DNA of 64,000 nt from contig JAGAPR010000001.1 of the NCBI GenBank assembly GCA_017623155.1, positions 62,001-126,000 of the forward strand, in the 5' to 3' direction. The DNA is from Prevotella sp. (GTDB taxonomy: Bacteria > Bacteroidota > Bacteroidia > Bacteroidales > Bacteroidaceae). A program made the position numbers and the translations under genes. The notes beneath the pieces were generated by a model. It ran no database searches. It worked only from the letters and a program-made list of their open reading frames with translations, and was not told the DNA's origin. Of the stretch, positions 50,103 to 55,169 are shown one piece after another (position 1 is the first letter of the stretch; each line of letters begins with the position of its first letter).

Positions 50103-50897
50103 CTACTTGATATTGTCTATGTCACGCCTCACATTGCTTCTTATCTTCGTGAGATAGGCTTTCATCGCGGCCGCGTCTTTCTTGTCGATGATGTCGAGAA
50201 GGGCGGTAAGCTCATTGCGGATTTGTGCCACCTGCTCGCCGGTATATGGATTGAAGAGAATTTCTTGCAGCAGGAAATCGTCTTCGTTGAGCACCCCTTT
50301 GGCTATCTTCATGTGCCGTTTGAAAGTGGTTCCCGGCGCGTCTTGATGCTTCATCACGGCGGCGAAGACGAAAGTGCTCACGAACGGTATGCTGAGAGAG
50401 TAGGCCACGGTGCGGTCGTGCTCCTCAAAGGTGTACTCGTATATGTTCAAGTCGAGCCGGCTGTAAAGGTCTTTGAAGAAGATACGGCCCATATAGTCGC
50501 CCTCACTGATTATTATCGCATTCTCTTCGCTCAACTGTTGCAGGTTGGCGAATGTGGGACCGAACATCGGGTGGGTCGATACGAACGGATGCCCGCACTG
50601 TTTGTAATAGTCGTAAAGCCCGGTCTTCACCGACGAGATGTCACTTATTATGCACTCGGCAGGCAGAAACGGCAACACCTCTTCGAATGCCGCGATGGTG
50701 TATTTCACCGTGACGGCGTTTATCACCAGCTCCGGACGGAAGTCTTTTACCTCATCGAGCGATGTCATTCGCCTGCAATTGTAGGTAAACCGCATTCGTT
50801 TCGGGTCCTTGTCGTATACGGCCGTCTCGTGGTCGAAGCTGAGCAGGTCGAGGAAAAAGCTGCCCATCTTACCCGCTCCAAGTATCAGTATTCTCAT
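50103..50897 (-). CDS. tyrA: Prephenate dehydrogenase
   Basis: 264 residues. NAD-binding MRILILGAGKMGSFFLDLL, ISDISSVKTGL, THPMFGPTF with the conserved His, and EEHDRTVAYSLSIPFVSTF in the helical domain. Makes 4-hydroxyphenylpyruvate for tyrosine. Last gene of the aromatic operon; its start overlaps the stop of the DAHPS/CM gene by 4 bases. Confidence 0.94.
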   Translation of the reverse strand: MRILILGAGKMGSFFLDLLSFDHETAVYDKDPKRMRFTYNCRRMTSLDEVKDFRPELVINAVTVKYTIAAFEEVLPFLPAECIISDISSVKTGLYDYYKQCGHPFVSTHPMFGPTFANLQQLSEENAIIISEGDYMGRIFFKDLYSRLDLNIYEYTFEEHDRTVAYSLSIPFVSTFVFAAVMKHQDAPGTTFKRHMKIAKGVLNEDDFLLQEILFNPYTGEQVAQIRNELTALLDIIDKKDAAAMKAYLTKIRSNVRRDIDNIK

Positions 50898-51958
50898 TTG
50901 TTGATGATTTCAAGTTGCTGTTTTACCGACTCTTCGTGTATGTTTTCAAACACTTTCGCCACGAAGTCGGAGCCCATTCCGCATAAAGCGCCTTGTGCTC
51001 CGCGTTTCTCAAGTATCTCGCTGTAACGCGCCGATTGCAGAATAGTCATGTTATGCTCTTTCTTGTACTGTCCGATTTCGCGACATACGCGCATGCGTTT
51101 TGCCAGAAGGTCCATCAGTTGGTTGTCTATCTCGTCTATCTGCTTGCGTAATTGGCCTATGCCTTCTGTCGTGACGGTCTCGTCGCGCACCACAATAAGA
51201 CTGAGAATATAGTCGAGCACATCCGGTGTCACCTGCTGTTTGGCGTCGCTCCAAGCCTTGTCCGGCTCGCAGTGGCTCTCTACTATAAGTCCGTCGAAAC
51301 CGAGATCCATTGCTTGTTGGCACAGCGGGGCAATCAGTTCGCGGCTTCCCCCGATGTGACTCGGGTCGCAGAAGATGGGAAGCTCGGGCATGCGGCGATG
51401 CAGTTCGATTGGAATTTGCCACATTGGCAGGTTGCGGTATATCTTTTTATCATAGCTTGAGAAGCCGCGGTGTATGGCTCCCATGCGCTTGATGCCTGCC
51501 TGATTGATGCGCTCCATGGCTCCAATCCACAGCTCGAGGTCGGGGTTTACGGGGTTTTTCACGAGCACCGGCACGTCAACACCTTTGAGAGCGTCGGCAA
51601 GAGACTGCATTGCGAAGGGATTGGCCGATGTCCGTGCGCCCACCCATAATATGTCGATGCCGTATTTTAATGCCATTTCCACATGCTCGGGGGTGGCTAC
51701 CTCGGTGGATATGAGCATTCCGGTCTGTTCCTTTACGGCTTTCATCCACGGCAGGGCTTTCTCTCCGTTGCCTTCAAAACCGCCGGGCTTTGTGCGTGGT
51801 TTCCACACTCCGGCTCTGAATATCTTGCATCCTTTGGCGGCGAGTTGTGTGGCGGTGGTCATCACCTGTTCCTCTGTTTCGGCCGAGCAAGGGCCTGCTA
51901 TGACGATAGGTCTTTTGTCTTCGTTTGACAGATTGAGCGGTTTTAATTCCAGTTCCAT
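50894..51958 (-). CDS. Bifunctional DAHP synthase / chorismate mutase
   Basis: 354 residues. Residues 1-260: DAHP synthase of the KDO8PS-like type (VIAGPCSAETEEQV, FRAGVWKPRTKPGGFEG, WVGARTSANPF, HRGFSSYDK, CDPSHIGGSRE). Residues about 265-354: AroQ-type chorismate mutase (IGQLRKQIDEIDNQLMDLLAKRM). The fusion joins the first shikimate step with the first Phe/Tyr-specific step, and in related bacteria the mutase part gives feedback control by prephenate. Third gene of the operon. Confidence 0.95.
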   Translation of the reverse strand: MELELKPLNLSNEDKRPIVIAGPCSAETEEQVMTTATQLAAKGCKIFRAGVWKPRTKPGGFEGNGEKALPWMKAVKEQTGMLISTEVATPEHVEMALKYGIDILWVGARTSANPFAMQSLADALKGVDVPVLVKNPVNPDLELWIGAMERINQAGIKRMGAIHRGFSSYDKKIYRNLPMWQIPIELHRRMPELPIFCDPSHIGGSRELIAPLCQQAMDLGFDGLIVESHCEPDKAWSDAKQQVTPDVLDYILSLIVVRDETVTTEGIGQLRKQIDEIDNQLMDLLAKRMRVCREIGQYKKEHNMTILQSARYSEILEKRGAQGALCGMGSDFVAKVFENIHEESVKQQLEIINK

Positions 51959-52010: not shown

Positions 52011-53192
52011 TCACCATTCCGACGTTTTAATTCTCTTTAATGCTTCTTGAAGTTTCTCCTCTTTCGCGCAGAGAGAGATGCGTATATAGCGTTCGCCGTT
52101 CGACCCGAAGATAAATCCCGGGGTGATAAACACGCGGCTTTCGTGGAGCACACGCTCGGTGAGCTGCTCGGCATTGTTGTATTTCTCCGGTATTTTTCCC
52201 CAGAGAAACATTCCCACCTGCTTGTTGTCGAATGTGCATCCGAGTGTTTGCATGATGCTCTCGGCATATTTCCGGCGGCGCGAATAGGTTTCGATGTTTG
52301 CCTGTCTGTGCCATTCCTCATCGTTGGCGTATGCCTCTGCGGCGGCGAGTTGTATGCCTCTGAACGTTCCGCTGTCTATATTGCTCTTCACTTTCAGTAT
52401 CCAGTTGATGAACGTCGTGTTTGAAGCACACATTCCCACGCGCCATCCCGGCATGTTGTGGCTCTTGCTCATGGAGTTGAACTCGATGCAACAGTCTTTT
52501 GCCCCTTCCGTTTGCAGGAGCGACATCGGGTTGTCGTTGAGGATGAAAGAGTAGGGGTTGTCGTTCACCACCACTATCCCGTGACGGCGTGCGAAGTCTA
52601 CAAGCCGTTCGTAAGTTTCCTTTCGGGCGTTTCCTCCGGTAGGCATGTTGGGATAGTTTGTCCACATCAGTTTCACGTTGGTGAGGTCGATGCTTTCCAA
52701 TTCGTCGAAATCCGGCTGCCATCCGTTGTCTTCCCGCAGGTTGTAGTTCACCACTTCGGCGCCGAGAATGCGGCTGAGTGATGTATACGTGGGGTATCCG
52801 GGATTTGGCACGAGCACCTTGTCGCCCGGGTTTACGAATGCCAGCGTGACATGAAGTATTCCCTCTTTCGAGCCGATGAGCGGTTGTATTTCCGTTGCCG
52901 GGTCGAGAGTCACGCCGTACCAGCGTTTGTAGAAGTCGGCCATTGCCTGCCGTAGTTCGGGCGTTCCCATTGTGGGTTGATATCCGTGGGCATCTGGCCG
53001 GCGGGCCACCTCGCACAGCTTGTCTATCGTTTTCTCCGATGGCGGCATGTCGGGGCTGCCTATTGCCAGACTGATGATGTCCCGTCCTTCGGCATTAAGC
53101 CGCGCCACTTCCTTGAGTTTGCGGCTGAAGTAGTATTCGCTTACCAGCCCGAGTCGTTCGGCAGGTCGTATGTCAGTCACTTTGTTTTCCAT
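52011..53192 (-). CDS. Class I/II PLP aminotransferase of the Phe/Tyr operon
   Basis: 393 residues. PLP-binding Lys in SMSKSHNMPGWRVG, NYPNMPTGG loop, GYQPTMGTPELRQAM, and a C-terminal Arg in RYIRISLC. Position between pheA and the DAHPS/CM gene suggests the final transamination of phenylpyruvate and hydroxyphenylpyruvate (or prephenate to arogenate). It overlaps pheA by 20 bases at its start. Confidence 0.92.
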   Translation of the reverse strand: MENKVTDIRPAERLGLVSEYYFSRKLKEVARLNAEGRDIISLAIGSPDMPPSEKTIDKLCEVARRPDAHGYQPTMGTPELRQAMADFYKRWYGVTLDPATEIQPLIGSKEGILHVTLAFVNPGDKVLVPNPGYPTYTSLSRILGAEVVNYNLREDNGWQPDFDELESIDLTNVKLMWTNYPNMPTGGNARKETYERLVDFARRHGIVVVNDNPYSFILNDNPMSLLQTEGAKDCCIEFNSMSKSHNMPGWRVGMCASNTTFINWILKVKSNIDSGTFRGIQLAAAEAYANDEEWHRQANIETYSRRRKYAESIMQTLGCTFDNKQVGMFLWGKIPEKYNNAEQLTERVLHESRVFITPGFIFGSNGERYIRISLCAKEEKLQEALKRIKTSEW

Positions 53193-54015
53193 TTATGTAC
53201 TCTCCTAAAATCTTTAATTCTCTTGTCAGTGGTGTTATGGCGTCGATGCTTTGGCGGTATCTTGTGAGGTTGTCGTATGTCACATCGACGTAGAACATGT
53301 ACTCCCATTCGCGCCCGATGATGGGCAACGACTGTATCTTTGTCATGTTTATCTTGTAGAACGACAGTATGCTCAGCACCTGAGACAGCGACCCCTCTTC
53401 GTGCGGAAGTGAGAAAACGAGGCTCGACTTGTCTGTCTTGTCAATCGGACGCAGGTAGTCGGCTTTTCTCGGGTCGCACACGACGAGAAACCTTGTGAAG
53501 TTATGTTTGTTGTCTTCTATATGGTTTTCGAGTATTTTCATGCCGTACATTTCCGCCGCCGCCGCGCTGCATATTGCTGCGTGGCCGTGTTGCCTGTTGT
53601 CGAAAATCTCTTTTGCCGCTCCGGCCGTGTCTTCGTTTTCCACGGCTTTCATTTCCGTGTGGCGCGCGAGAAACTCCCGGCATTGCATCAGTGCCACGGG
53701 GTGTGAGTGTATTTCGGTGATGGTGTCCCAGTCGTCGTCGGGCAGGCAGCAGATGCAGTGTGATATATGGAGCTTGTGCTCGCCCACGACCGCTGTTCCC
53801 GAGTCGCGCAGCAGTTCGTAGTTGTGCAGCAGGCTGCCGGCTATCGTGTTCTCGATTGCCGTCATTCCGATTATTGTCGGGTCATTCTTTATGCAGTCGA
53901 ACACCTCCTCAAATGTGGCGCAACATATCAGTTGTGTCTGTTCTCCCTCGAAATATTGGTTTGCCGCTATGTCGTGAAACGACCCCCTGAGTCCTTGTAT
54001 CGCTATTCTTTTCAT
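53173..54015 (-). CDS. pheA: Prephenate dehydratase
   Basis: 280 residues. Periplasmic-binding-like catalytic domain with IQGLRGSFHDIAAN, GMTAIENTIAGSL, and DNKHNFTRFLVV containing the catalytic Thr-Arg-Phe. The ACT domain (about 200-275, SLVFSLPHEEGSLSQVLSIL) should bind Phe for feedback. First structural gene of the operon; a leader peptide and terminator hairpin lie between it and the promoter. Confidence 0.96.
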   Translation of the reverse strand: MKRIAIQGLRGSFHDIAANQYFEGEQTQLICCATFEEVFDCIKNDPTIIGMTAIENTIAGSLLHNYELLRDSGTAVVGEHKLHISHCICCLPDDDWDTITEIHSHPVALMQCREFLARHTEMKAVENEDTAGAAKEIFDNRQHGHAAICSAAAAEMYGMKILENHIEDNKHNFTRFLVVCDPRKADYLRPIDKTDKSSLVFSLPHEEGSLSQVLSILSFYKINMTKIQSLPIIGREWEYMFYVDVTYDNLTRYRQSIDAITPLTRELKILGEYINGKQSD

Positions 54016-54038: not shown

Positions 54039-54072
54039 AAAATCCCGCCTCATTGTGGTGAAGCGGGATTTT
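54039..54072 (-). terminator. Attenuator hairpin before pheA
   Basis: Minus strand: AAAATCCCGC (54072-54063), 14-base loop, GCGGGATTTT (54048-54039); the U-tract is the TTTT of the 3' arm. It ends 23 bases before the pheA ATG. Its 5' arm with adjoining loop bases (TCCCGCTTC, 54068-54060) can instead pair with GAAGCGGGA in the leader ORF (54138-54130). Confidence 0.8.
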
Positions 54073-54117
54073 GACTGTATATCATCTTTATGATGTTGTC
54101 TTGTCATAAGTTGAAAT

Positions 54118-54195
54118 TTACACGCAACTTCCCGCTTCGCAATTCCTTGCAAAGTAGAAAAAATAGTTGTAAAAGTATGCGTGAAACTTATTCAT
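54118..54195 (-). CDS. Phe/Tyr-rich leader peptide of the pheA operon
   Basis: 25 codons plus TAA. Residues 4-15 are F-H-A-Y-F-Y-N-Y-F-F-Y-F: five Phe and four Tyr. The ATG is about 22 bases after the expected RNA start. Codons 20-22 (GAA GCG GGA) are complementary to the 5' side of the terminator hairpin 62 bases downstream. A ribosome stalled at the Phe/Tyr run would leave codons 20-22 free to form the antiterminator; a ribosome reaching the stop codon would cover them and let the terminator form. Coding role is inferred from composition and layout. Confidence 0.85.
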   Translation of the reverse strand: MNKFHAYFYNYFFYFARNCEAGSCV

Positions 54196-54223
54196 AATCT
54201 TGTTATTTTTGTTTACTCGATTG

Positions 54224-54255
54224 CAAAAGTAAAGATTTTCTGTGAATAAAACAAA
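54224..54255 (-). promoter_or_regulatory. Promoter of the pheA operon
   Basis: Minus strand -33 TTTG at 54255-54252, 20-base spacer, -7 TACTTTTG at 54231-54224. Confidence 0.8.
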
Positions 54256-54293: not shown

Positions 54294-55169
54294 TCATAAT
54301 CCGAGCGGATTGATAAAACTCGACTTGCGCATTTTGTTCTCGATGCCCTCGGCAGAGTATTCGCCCGTGATGTCGTTTATTTGGTCGGGATTAAGTTCCA
54401 ACACTCGCTGCATGTCGGCCTGTGCTCCGTTCATGTCGCCTTTGTTGTATCTTAGCTCTCCGCGCTCTTTGAATGCCTCGGAGCAGAACGGATTAAGTTC
54501 CGTCAACTTATTATATATGTCTGTTGCGGTATCCGCATGCCCCGCGGCGGCCTCGGCTCTCGCTTTCAGAAGCAGGGCGTCTTCGTTTTCTCCGTAGGTG
54601 CTTATCAGCGTGTCAGCGTCTTTTCCGGCTCCCGCGGCATCGCCCATTTTCAGCAGAAGTTGCCCGCGTAGCAGATATGCGGCGGCAAAATCGGGGTCTA
54701 ACGCTATGGCGCGGCTCACCGTTGCCACGGCTGCCACGGCATTGCCCATGCCGTCGTGTGCCCGGGCATACAGATAATTGCCGCGCGCGCACTTGTTGTC
54801 TATATCGAGAATACGTGTGCAGAGGGCGGCCATTTTGTCGTAGTCTTCCGTGAGAAAGGCCACGTCTGCCATGCGGATGAGTATCTCCTTGTTGTCGGGT
54901 TGCGCGTCGTAGAGCACGTTCAGGTGGGTCATTGCCTCGTCGAGCCTGTCGGTGTGTATCAGTGATTGGGCGATATAGTCGTGTATCTCGAGGTCATCGT
55001 GTATTTCGAGAGCCTTCTCATAGCATTTCACAGCATAGTCGTGCTGTCCCATCCGGGCGGCTTTCACGCCGTCATACTTGAACAAGTCAAATCTTTTTGC
55101 CTCGTCCGTCCGCTGTTTCTCTTCGGGAGTCTCCTCGCTGCCCCCGAACAATGCTTTAAATATATTCAT
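54294..55169 (-). CDS. Tetratricopeptide-repeat protein
   Basis: 291 residues, about six TPR units from residue 30 on (DYAVKCYEKALEIHDD, DEAMTHLNVLYDAQPDN, AAVATVSRAIALDPDFAAAY, and the last GAQADMQRVLELNPDQ). No signal peptide; the start is MNIFKALFGGSEETPEEKQR. Cytoplasmic scaffold of unknown partners. Its stop is only about 40 bases from the pheA -33 box. Confidence 0.88.
   Translation of the reverse strand: MNIFKALFGGSEETPEEKQRTDEAKRFDLFKYDGVKAARMGQHDYAVKCYEKALEIHDDLEIHDYIAQSLIHTDRLDEAMTHLNVLYDAQPDNKEILIRMADVAFLTEDYDKMAALCTRILDIDNKCARGNYLYARAHDGMGNAVAAVATVSRAIALDPDFAAAYLLRGQLLLKMGDAAGAGKDADTLISTYGENEDALLLKARAEAAAGHADTATDIYNKLTELNPFCSEAFKERGELRYNKGDMNGAQADMQRVLELNPDQINDITGEYSAEGIENKMRKSSFINPLGL

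Follow-up and report, generated by a model that had tools for sequence, protein, structure and literature searches.

What does the short interval between a TPR-repeat gene and pheA do for the operon behind it? On the minus strand of the window, the stretch of 64,000 nucleotides of Prevotella DNA analysed here as a whole, this interval holds a small reading frame crowded with phenylalanine and tyrosine codons and a hairpin close to the start of pheA. The preliminary description had read the arrangement as a leader-peptide attenuator, and this reading is supported by the conservation of the leader, the co-variation of its helices and a spacing suited to a ribosome gate. Judged from sequence comparison, the locus is very probably a ribosome-mediated transcription attenuator which senses charged tRNA-Phe and tRNA-Tyr. 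The source genome is a draft (83.8% complete, 104 contigs), and the closest named match to the window's PheA is found in Prevotella sp. MGM1 (93% identical).

The operon, its promoter and the leader frame

The features of the locus are collected in Table 1. Since pheA is followed by an aminotransferase, a DAHP synthase fused to chorismate mutase and tyrA, the operon serves the synthesis of both Phe and Tyr, and these four genes are probably co-transcribed. Upstream of the leader, the full promoter that had been described can be read on the minus strand as TTTG-N20-TACTTTTG, which we take to fit the Bacteroidetes promoter consensus TTTG/TAnnTTTG, and transcription of the leader would start at about position 54217. 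The promoter was missed by a generic scan because such a scan seeks sigma-70 hexamers and not the Bacteroidetes type. In four sets of relatives, TAnnTTTG occurred among the 110 nt that precede the leader ATG in 77 of 78, 38 of 40, 35 of 46 and 13 of 25 loci, compared with 6.0, 2.1, 4.0 and 3.0 expected from shuffles.

Table 1 Features of the proposed attenuator locus and its surroundings in the window.
Feature	Position	Strand	Basis
TPR-repeat gene, upstream neighbour of the leader region	54294-55169
Candidate promoter: TTTG (54255-54252), 20-nt spacer, TACTTTTG (54231-54224)	54224..54255	(-)	sequence
Leader peptide frame MNKFHAYFYNYFFYFARNCEAGSCV, 25 codons	54118..54195	(-)	sequence and conservation
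P0 mini-hairpin GCAA-GGAA-UUGC, 12 nt, codons 16-19	54139..54150	(-)	directly behind the last Phe codon
Antiterminator strand GAAGCGGGA, codons 20-22	54130..54138	(-)	exact complement of 54068-54060
P1, possible protector hairpin GCGG/UUGC	54124..54135	(-)	RNAalifold consensus, columns 16-19 with 24-27
P2 hairpin AAGUUG/CAACUU around the stop codon, adjoining the antiterminator	54108..54130	(-)	pairing in alignment A1
Intrinsic terminator hairpin (predicted)	54039..54072	(-)	fold -20.0 kcal/mol
pheA, prephenate dehydratase, 280 aa, start at 54015	53173..54015	(-)	Pfam PF00800
Class I/II aminotransferase	52011..53192	(-)	Pfam PF00155
DAHP synthase fused to chorismate mutase	50894..51958	(-)	Pfam PF00793 and PF01817
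tyrA, prephenate dehydrogenase	50103..50897	(-)	Pfam PF02153

The leader frame, which is presumably translated, agrees with the earlier count of five Phe and four Tyr codons among residues 4-15 of a 25-codon frame: Phe stands at residues 4, 8, 12, 13 and 15 and Tyr at residues 7, 9, 11 and 14, and nine of these twelve residues are therefore Phe or Tyr in front of an operon with pheA and tyrA. Leaders were scored by the best F+Y count per 12 residues in an upstream ATG frame of 10-45 codons, and the leader of the window scores 9. When the upstream regions of pheA loci were put through 5,200 dinucleotide shuffles, only 11 gave a score of at least 7. Such leaders also stand almost only before pheA. 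Among the 71 open reading frames of at least 150 aa in the window, pheA alone has a leader of this F+Y content, and at 140 other loci the same threshold was reached before 79 of 1,002 reading frames of at least 150 aa, 77 of the 79 being pheA. The RNA of the leader region folds with a z score of -6.0, and equal stability was obtained in none of 200 shuffles.

What is kept in the leader is a run of Phe and Tyr and not a fixed peptide, as most positions of the run can hold either F or Y and the ends of the peptide outside the run differ between families. The Prevotella set shows a well-conserved peptide, whose conserved C-terminal CEAGSCV overlaps paired RNA. These features help to weigh a nascent-peptide sensor, in which the leader peptide itself would arrest the ribosome on free Phe, free Tyr or another ligand, as in TnaC, and work the same RNA switch. 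Although a strongly aromatic run and good conservation in the Prevotella set are what such a sensor would show, the interchange of F and Y between families, the varying residues around the run and the coincidence of CEAGSCV with paired RNA speak against it, as does the fact that Tyr-poor leaders mostly have no tyrA nearby; we consider it very unlikely.

Predicted exclusive helices and the position of the ribosome

The attenuator reading requires that the leader and the terminator compete for the same RNA. Codons 20-22 had been said to pair over nine bases with the 5' side of a terminator hairpin just before pheA, and both the pairing and the hairpin were recovered: GAAGCGGGA is the exact 9-base complement of TCCCGCTTC (54068-54060) in the 5' arm, and the hairpin ends 23 nt before pheA. 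Transcription would be terminated there in vivo. The U tract of this terminator is short, with four bases that are paired with an A tract and followed by CGAUUAAA. Because of the short tail, with four T inside the stem, the terminator of the window is not listed by a simple scan, which requires that 5 of 8 bases behind the stem are T; longer tails occur in many of the relatives.

The pairing was examined in three ways. First, the stretch from the Phe/Tyr run to the terminator was shuffled 200 times, and the actual antiterminator was better than the shuffles at p<=0.01 in 72 of 79 loci of the Prevotella set together with the window and in 64 of 79 other loci. Second, each leader was paired with the terminator arms of other loci in a swap test, and the own pairs won in Prevotella (z -6.2, n=78), in the family (z -6.8, n=42), in the order (z -13.2, n=49) and in the class together with two loci of other classes (z -9.1, n=30). 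Third, an alignment, A1, of 63 rows (62 relatives and the window) and 139 columns was built from 62 of the 77 distinct leader regions of the relatives, 15 being left out. In A1, 92.6% of the cells of the antiterminator helix and 88.0% of those of the terminator helix are paired, the latter with both-side changes in 6 of 14 pairs. For both structures the both-side-changed cells, the covariation score and the percentage paired exceed all 500 shuffles, and the number of pairs with both-side changes was reached by 15 and 8 of 500, the co-variation counts being inflated by related rows. Further pair types did not rise above the shuffles in A1 (337 and 394 of 500 reach the observed number), and 15 and 17 of the 63 rows lack pairing at the two outer positions of the antiterminator helix. 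At the level of sequence, the 9-bp complement, the co-variation and the predicted folds all give an antiterminator and a terminator that are mutually exclusive.

The distance from codon 15 to codon 20 had been proposed to suit a stalled ribosome, and the spacing and folds of 189 leaders agree with this proposal. These leaders comprise 187 distinct sequences, because L023 does not differ from L130 over 200 nt and L044 repeats the sequence of L038 from leader to terminator; the named and family sets overlap. The gap from the last Phe/Tyr codon to the start of the antiterminator measures at least 6 nt in 186 of the 189 leaders and 8 to 14 nt in 159, with medians of 9, 12, 12 and 10 nt in Prevotella, the family, the order and the class, respectively. 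In 188 of the 189, the antiterminator does not extend further than 14 nt beyond the stop codon. In shuffled regions of the order and class, the best helix can start anywhere, with a 5th-95th percentile range of 1 to 49 nt. A ribosome is reported to cover about 12 nt downstream of the translated codon (PMC4833913). The observed spacing fits what a ribosome gate needs: in positional terms, a stalled ribosome would leave the antiterminator free in 186 leaders and a terminating one would cover it in 188 of 189.

Folding gave a similar picture. When a ribosome stalled on the last Phe/Tyr codon was assumed to cover 8, 10, 12 or 14 nt beyond it, and the transcript was taken up to the terminator loop, the antiterminator folded in 188, 188, 182 and 172 of the 189 leaders, respectively. 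When the ribosome was placed on the stop codon, folding of the full transcript gave the terminator in 187 of 189, and 36 of the 189 terminator arms can pair upstream while the 3' arm has yet to be made. In the case of the window, the equilibrium fold of the whole transcript prefers the terminator, so the switch must be kinetic. Kinetic switching is also used in trp attenuation.

Three small helices accompany the switch in the Prevotella group. P0, of the general form GCAR-N4-YUGY, lies between the last Phe/Tyr codon and the antiterminator and is paired in 63 of 63 rows of A1, its pair 4-9 being G-C in 35 and A-U in 28; it may be the stretch that lies under the stalled ribosome. P1 has four pairs which would hide the antiterminator core, and it could conceal the antiterminator when no ribosome is present; the case for P1 is weaker because changes occur on one side only. 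In P2, 74% of the cells are paired and three of five pairs have both-side changes, and P2 is absent from part of the relatives. P2 is predicted to share bases with P1 and to adjoin the antiterminator helix.

Using these parts, the attenuator would work as follows. RNA polymerase would start at the TTTG/TAnnTTTG promoter, and a ribosome would translate the leader. With ample charged tRNA, the ribosome would reach the stop codon and cover the antiterminator in codons 20-22 with its front, so that the terminator hairpin could form and transcription would end before pheA. If Phe or Tyr runs low, the ribosome would halt in the Phe/Tyr run with its front about 12 nt further, over P0; the free antiterminator would then pair with the terminator's 5' arm while the 3' arm has yet to be transcribed, and the polymerase would read through pheA, the aminotransferase, DAHP synthase/chorismate mutase and tyrA. 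The direction of this response to Phe/Tyr supply is, like the steps themselves, a prediction from the sequence. A translation-coupled gate of this kind might also sense general translation stress instead of Phe and Tyr, since any ribosome slowed in the run would be expected to open it, but the run consists nearly only of codons for Phe and Tyr, the products of the operon, and we regard such a stress sensor as most improbable. The reading we prefer is that of an attenuator for Phe and Tyr.

Distribution among relatives and operon content

The distribution of the leader was followed with one definition, namely an ATG frame of 10-45 codons within 520 nt in which some stretch of 12 residues contains 7 or more F+Y. 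All counts are confined to loci that yielded a PheA relative; no PheA match was obtained for 107 of 149 genomes in the class draw and 88 of 149 in the order draw. The loci were sampled from the best matches, nearly all remaining rows of the order and class, and part of those of the family and phylum. For the family, 51 of the 99 genomes with a match (own genome aside) were examined, comprising 42 with the native pheA and 9 with the bifunctional type, and for the phylum draw, with 88 matching genomes, loci were taken from the 30 best and 20 others. Four loci were dropped from the leader counts, one with 140 nt of upstream DNA (L073) and three at contig ends (L143, L176, L206).

Among Prevotella-type loci with enough upstream DNA, 78 of 79 have the leader by the ATG definition, and it is present in 78 of 80 named Prevotella-type pheA loci when GTG and TTG starts are also allowed. 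The preliminary description had looked to related genomes for conserved Phe/Tyr codons and covarying stems upstream of pheA, which were found (78 of 80 Prevotella-type loci; swap test), and had counted loci without a Phe/Tyr frame as evidence against it, of which there is one among the 79 (L067). That the hairpin with its short U tract between the TPR gene and pheA is merely the plain terminator of the TPR gene, next to a chance frame and without any regulation, was rejected and has practically no chance of being right, since 78 of 80 close loci and a large part of the class keep the frame, such a frame seldom arises in shuffles, the antiterminator and terminator co-vary, and leaders of this F+Y content stand almost only before pheA.

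At the sole leaderless Prevotella-type locus (L067:2200-3030), pheA lies directly behind another reading frame, so the leader and promoter were lost or displaced there, or the draft is misassembled.

In the wider family outside this set, 40 of 42 loci with the native pheA have the leader and the other two score 6. In other families of the order it was found in 47 of 57 loci, with three more scoring 6 and seven without a leader, and in other orders of the class in 15 of 34, with five more scoring 6 and fourteen without. The class loci of the phylum draw have it in 8 of 9 cases, which gives 23 of 43 for the class outside the order, and in the other classes of the phylum it was found in 2 of 30 loci. 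A covariance model of the element matched 66 of 80 genomes of the genus; 63 of these 66 were matched once, five of them at weak scores only (E 0.001-0.005), and the other three gave an additional weak match. The best 30 genome matches of the model, own genome included, all lie in front of pheA.

Nine genomes of the same family (L226-L234) have a pheA of bifunctional length, with open frames of 383-452 aa, which is 28-32% identical to the window's PheA, and the leader was found in none of these nine. The native operon may have been replaced there, as the bifunctional pheA and the missing leader occur together.

The order, class and phylum lists contain 80 loci that score 6 or more F+Y, and at 60 of these the codons of the leader were compared with the genes of the operon. 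The 60 comprised all six of the listed Tyr-poor leaders and 54 others; one (L321, where the contig ends 1.0 kb after pheA) was dropped, leaving n=59. A downstream tyrA was found for 1 of 6 leaders with at most one Tyr compared with 49 of 53 with at least two (Fisher p 1.4e-4), a pattern that is exploratory because the Tyr cut was chosen after the data had been seen. A rank test of the Tyr share in loci with and without tyrA was not significant (p 0.11). At four loci with Tyr-poor leaders, each from a different family (L160, L172, L185, L193), the 5.1-6.5 kb downstream of pheA showed no detected relatives of the aminotransferase, the DAHP synthase or tyrA, and L190, from the family of L160, has a Phe+Tyr leader and the full operon. 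There are counter-examples in both directions: at L201 the complete operon, tyrA included, follows a leader that is almost Phe-only, and Phe+Tyr leaders stand in four of nine loci where no tyrA was found downstream. The antiterminators of L185 and L201 are weak. The exploratory pattern would be best explained if the Tyr codons are present to sense Tyr, and the lineages with Phe-only leaders can serve as a natural experiment which links codon content to operon content.

Taken as a whole, we lean towards the view that the element is an ancestral attenuator of the Bacteroidia and an undescribed family, in which the conserved spacing between the last aromatic codon and the antiterminator is a ruler of ribosome length, and with codons that were re-tuned when the operon was split, Tyr being lost where pheA stands alone.

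In some leaders of other families (L114-L116, L192, L197, L203, L207, L210), a Trp codon comes right after the Phe/Tyr run. Perhaps Trp is sensed too, because the enzyme that opens the common aromatic pathway is encoded in the operon.

Relation to known attenuators

When the window was compared with 4,227 Rfam families, none matched at the gathering score, and only a tRNA did so in 20 relative loci. The T-box and riboswitch families of Rfam were likewise without a gathering-score match in the window and these 20 loci. Low-scoring Rfam matches in the window were judged to be chance. Phe_leader (RF01859) reached 14.6 bits on the opposite strand of the window, compared with a cut-off of 55. The pheA attenuator of Escherichia coli (pheL) has a short Phe-coding leader and an antiterminator/terminator switch before Phe genes. 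The element described here shares this plan with pheL and RF01859, but it differs in carrying both Phe and Tyr codons, in belonging to another phylum with another type of promoter, and in preceding an operon that also holds DAHP synthase and tyrA. In enterobacteria, the ilvGMEDA and thrABC leaders each respond to several of the amino acids that their operon makes. Sensing of more than one amino acid is thus common to these leaders and ours, although theirs have branched-chain or Thr/Ile codons and are found in Proteobacteria.

Transcript maps of the phylum point in the same direction. In Flavobacterium psychrophilum, strong clues were reported for leader-peptide attenuation before amino-acid operons (PMC9723704), and in Bacteroides thetaiotaomicron, sORFs in long 5' UTRs were found reminiscent of leader peptides (PMC7366714). 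In the main texts of these two papers, a term search found no mention of phenylalanine. Our partial literature search found no description of the Phe/Tyr element. A survey of amino-acid operon attenuation in bacteria was reportedly published by Lopatovskaya, Seliverstov and Lyubetsky in 2010; as this survey may include pheA of Bacteroidetes, priority is not settled. The mechanism itself is classical, and the new part is the class-wide Phe/Tyr element, its ribosome-length spacing and the match between codons and operon.

If the element is such an ancestral attenuator, transcription and translation are coupled closely enough for attenuation through much of the class Bacteroidia. The conserved spacing of ribosome length is indirect evidence that ribosomes follow RNA polymerase closely in Bacteroidota. 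This dominant gut phylum gains a clear and testable candidate regulator of Phe and Tyr synthesis. In addition, the covariance model and the definitions used here could become a new RNA family.

Other amino-acid operons were also considered. In the own genome, no His-rich leader was seen by eye upstream of hisG (L266), so not every amino-acid operon of the genome need use the device. Neither trpE nor, hence, a Trp leader was found in the draft of the own genome (83.8% complete). The Bacteroid-trp motif (RF01692; Weinberg 2010, PMC2864571) had no match in the window, the 20 relative loci or the own genome. It comes from the same phylum as the Phe/Tyr element, but it has Trp codons. Among the top RF01692 matches in genomes of the family, four of five have a short reading frame with two or three adjacent Trp codons, and at L357, L358, L360 and L361 the Trp-codon frame is followed by a terminator-like hairpin. 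These Trp-codon frames suggest that Trp is sensed by a similar device in the phylum.
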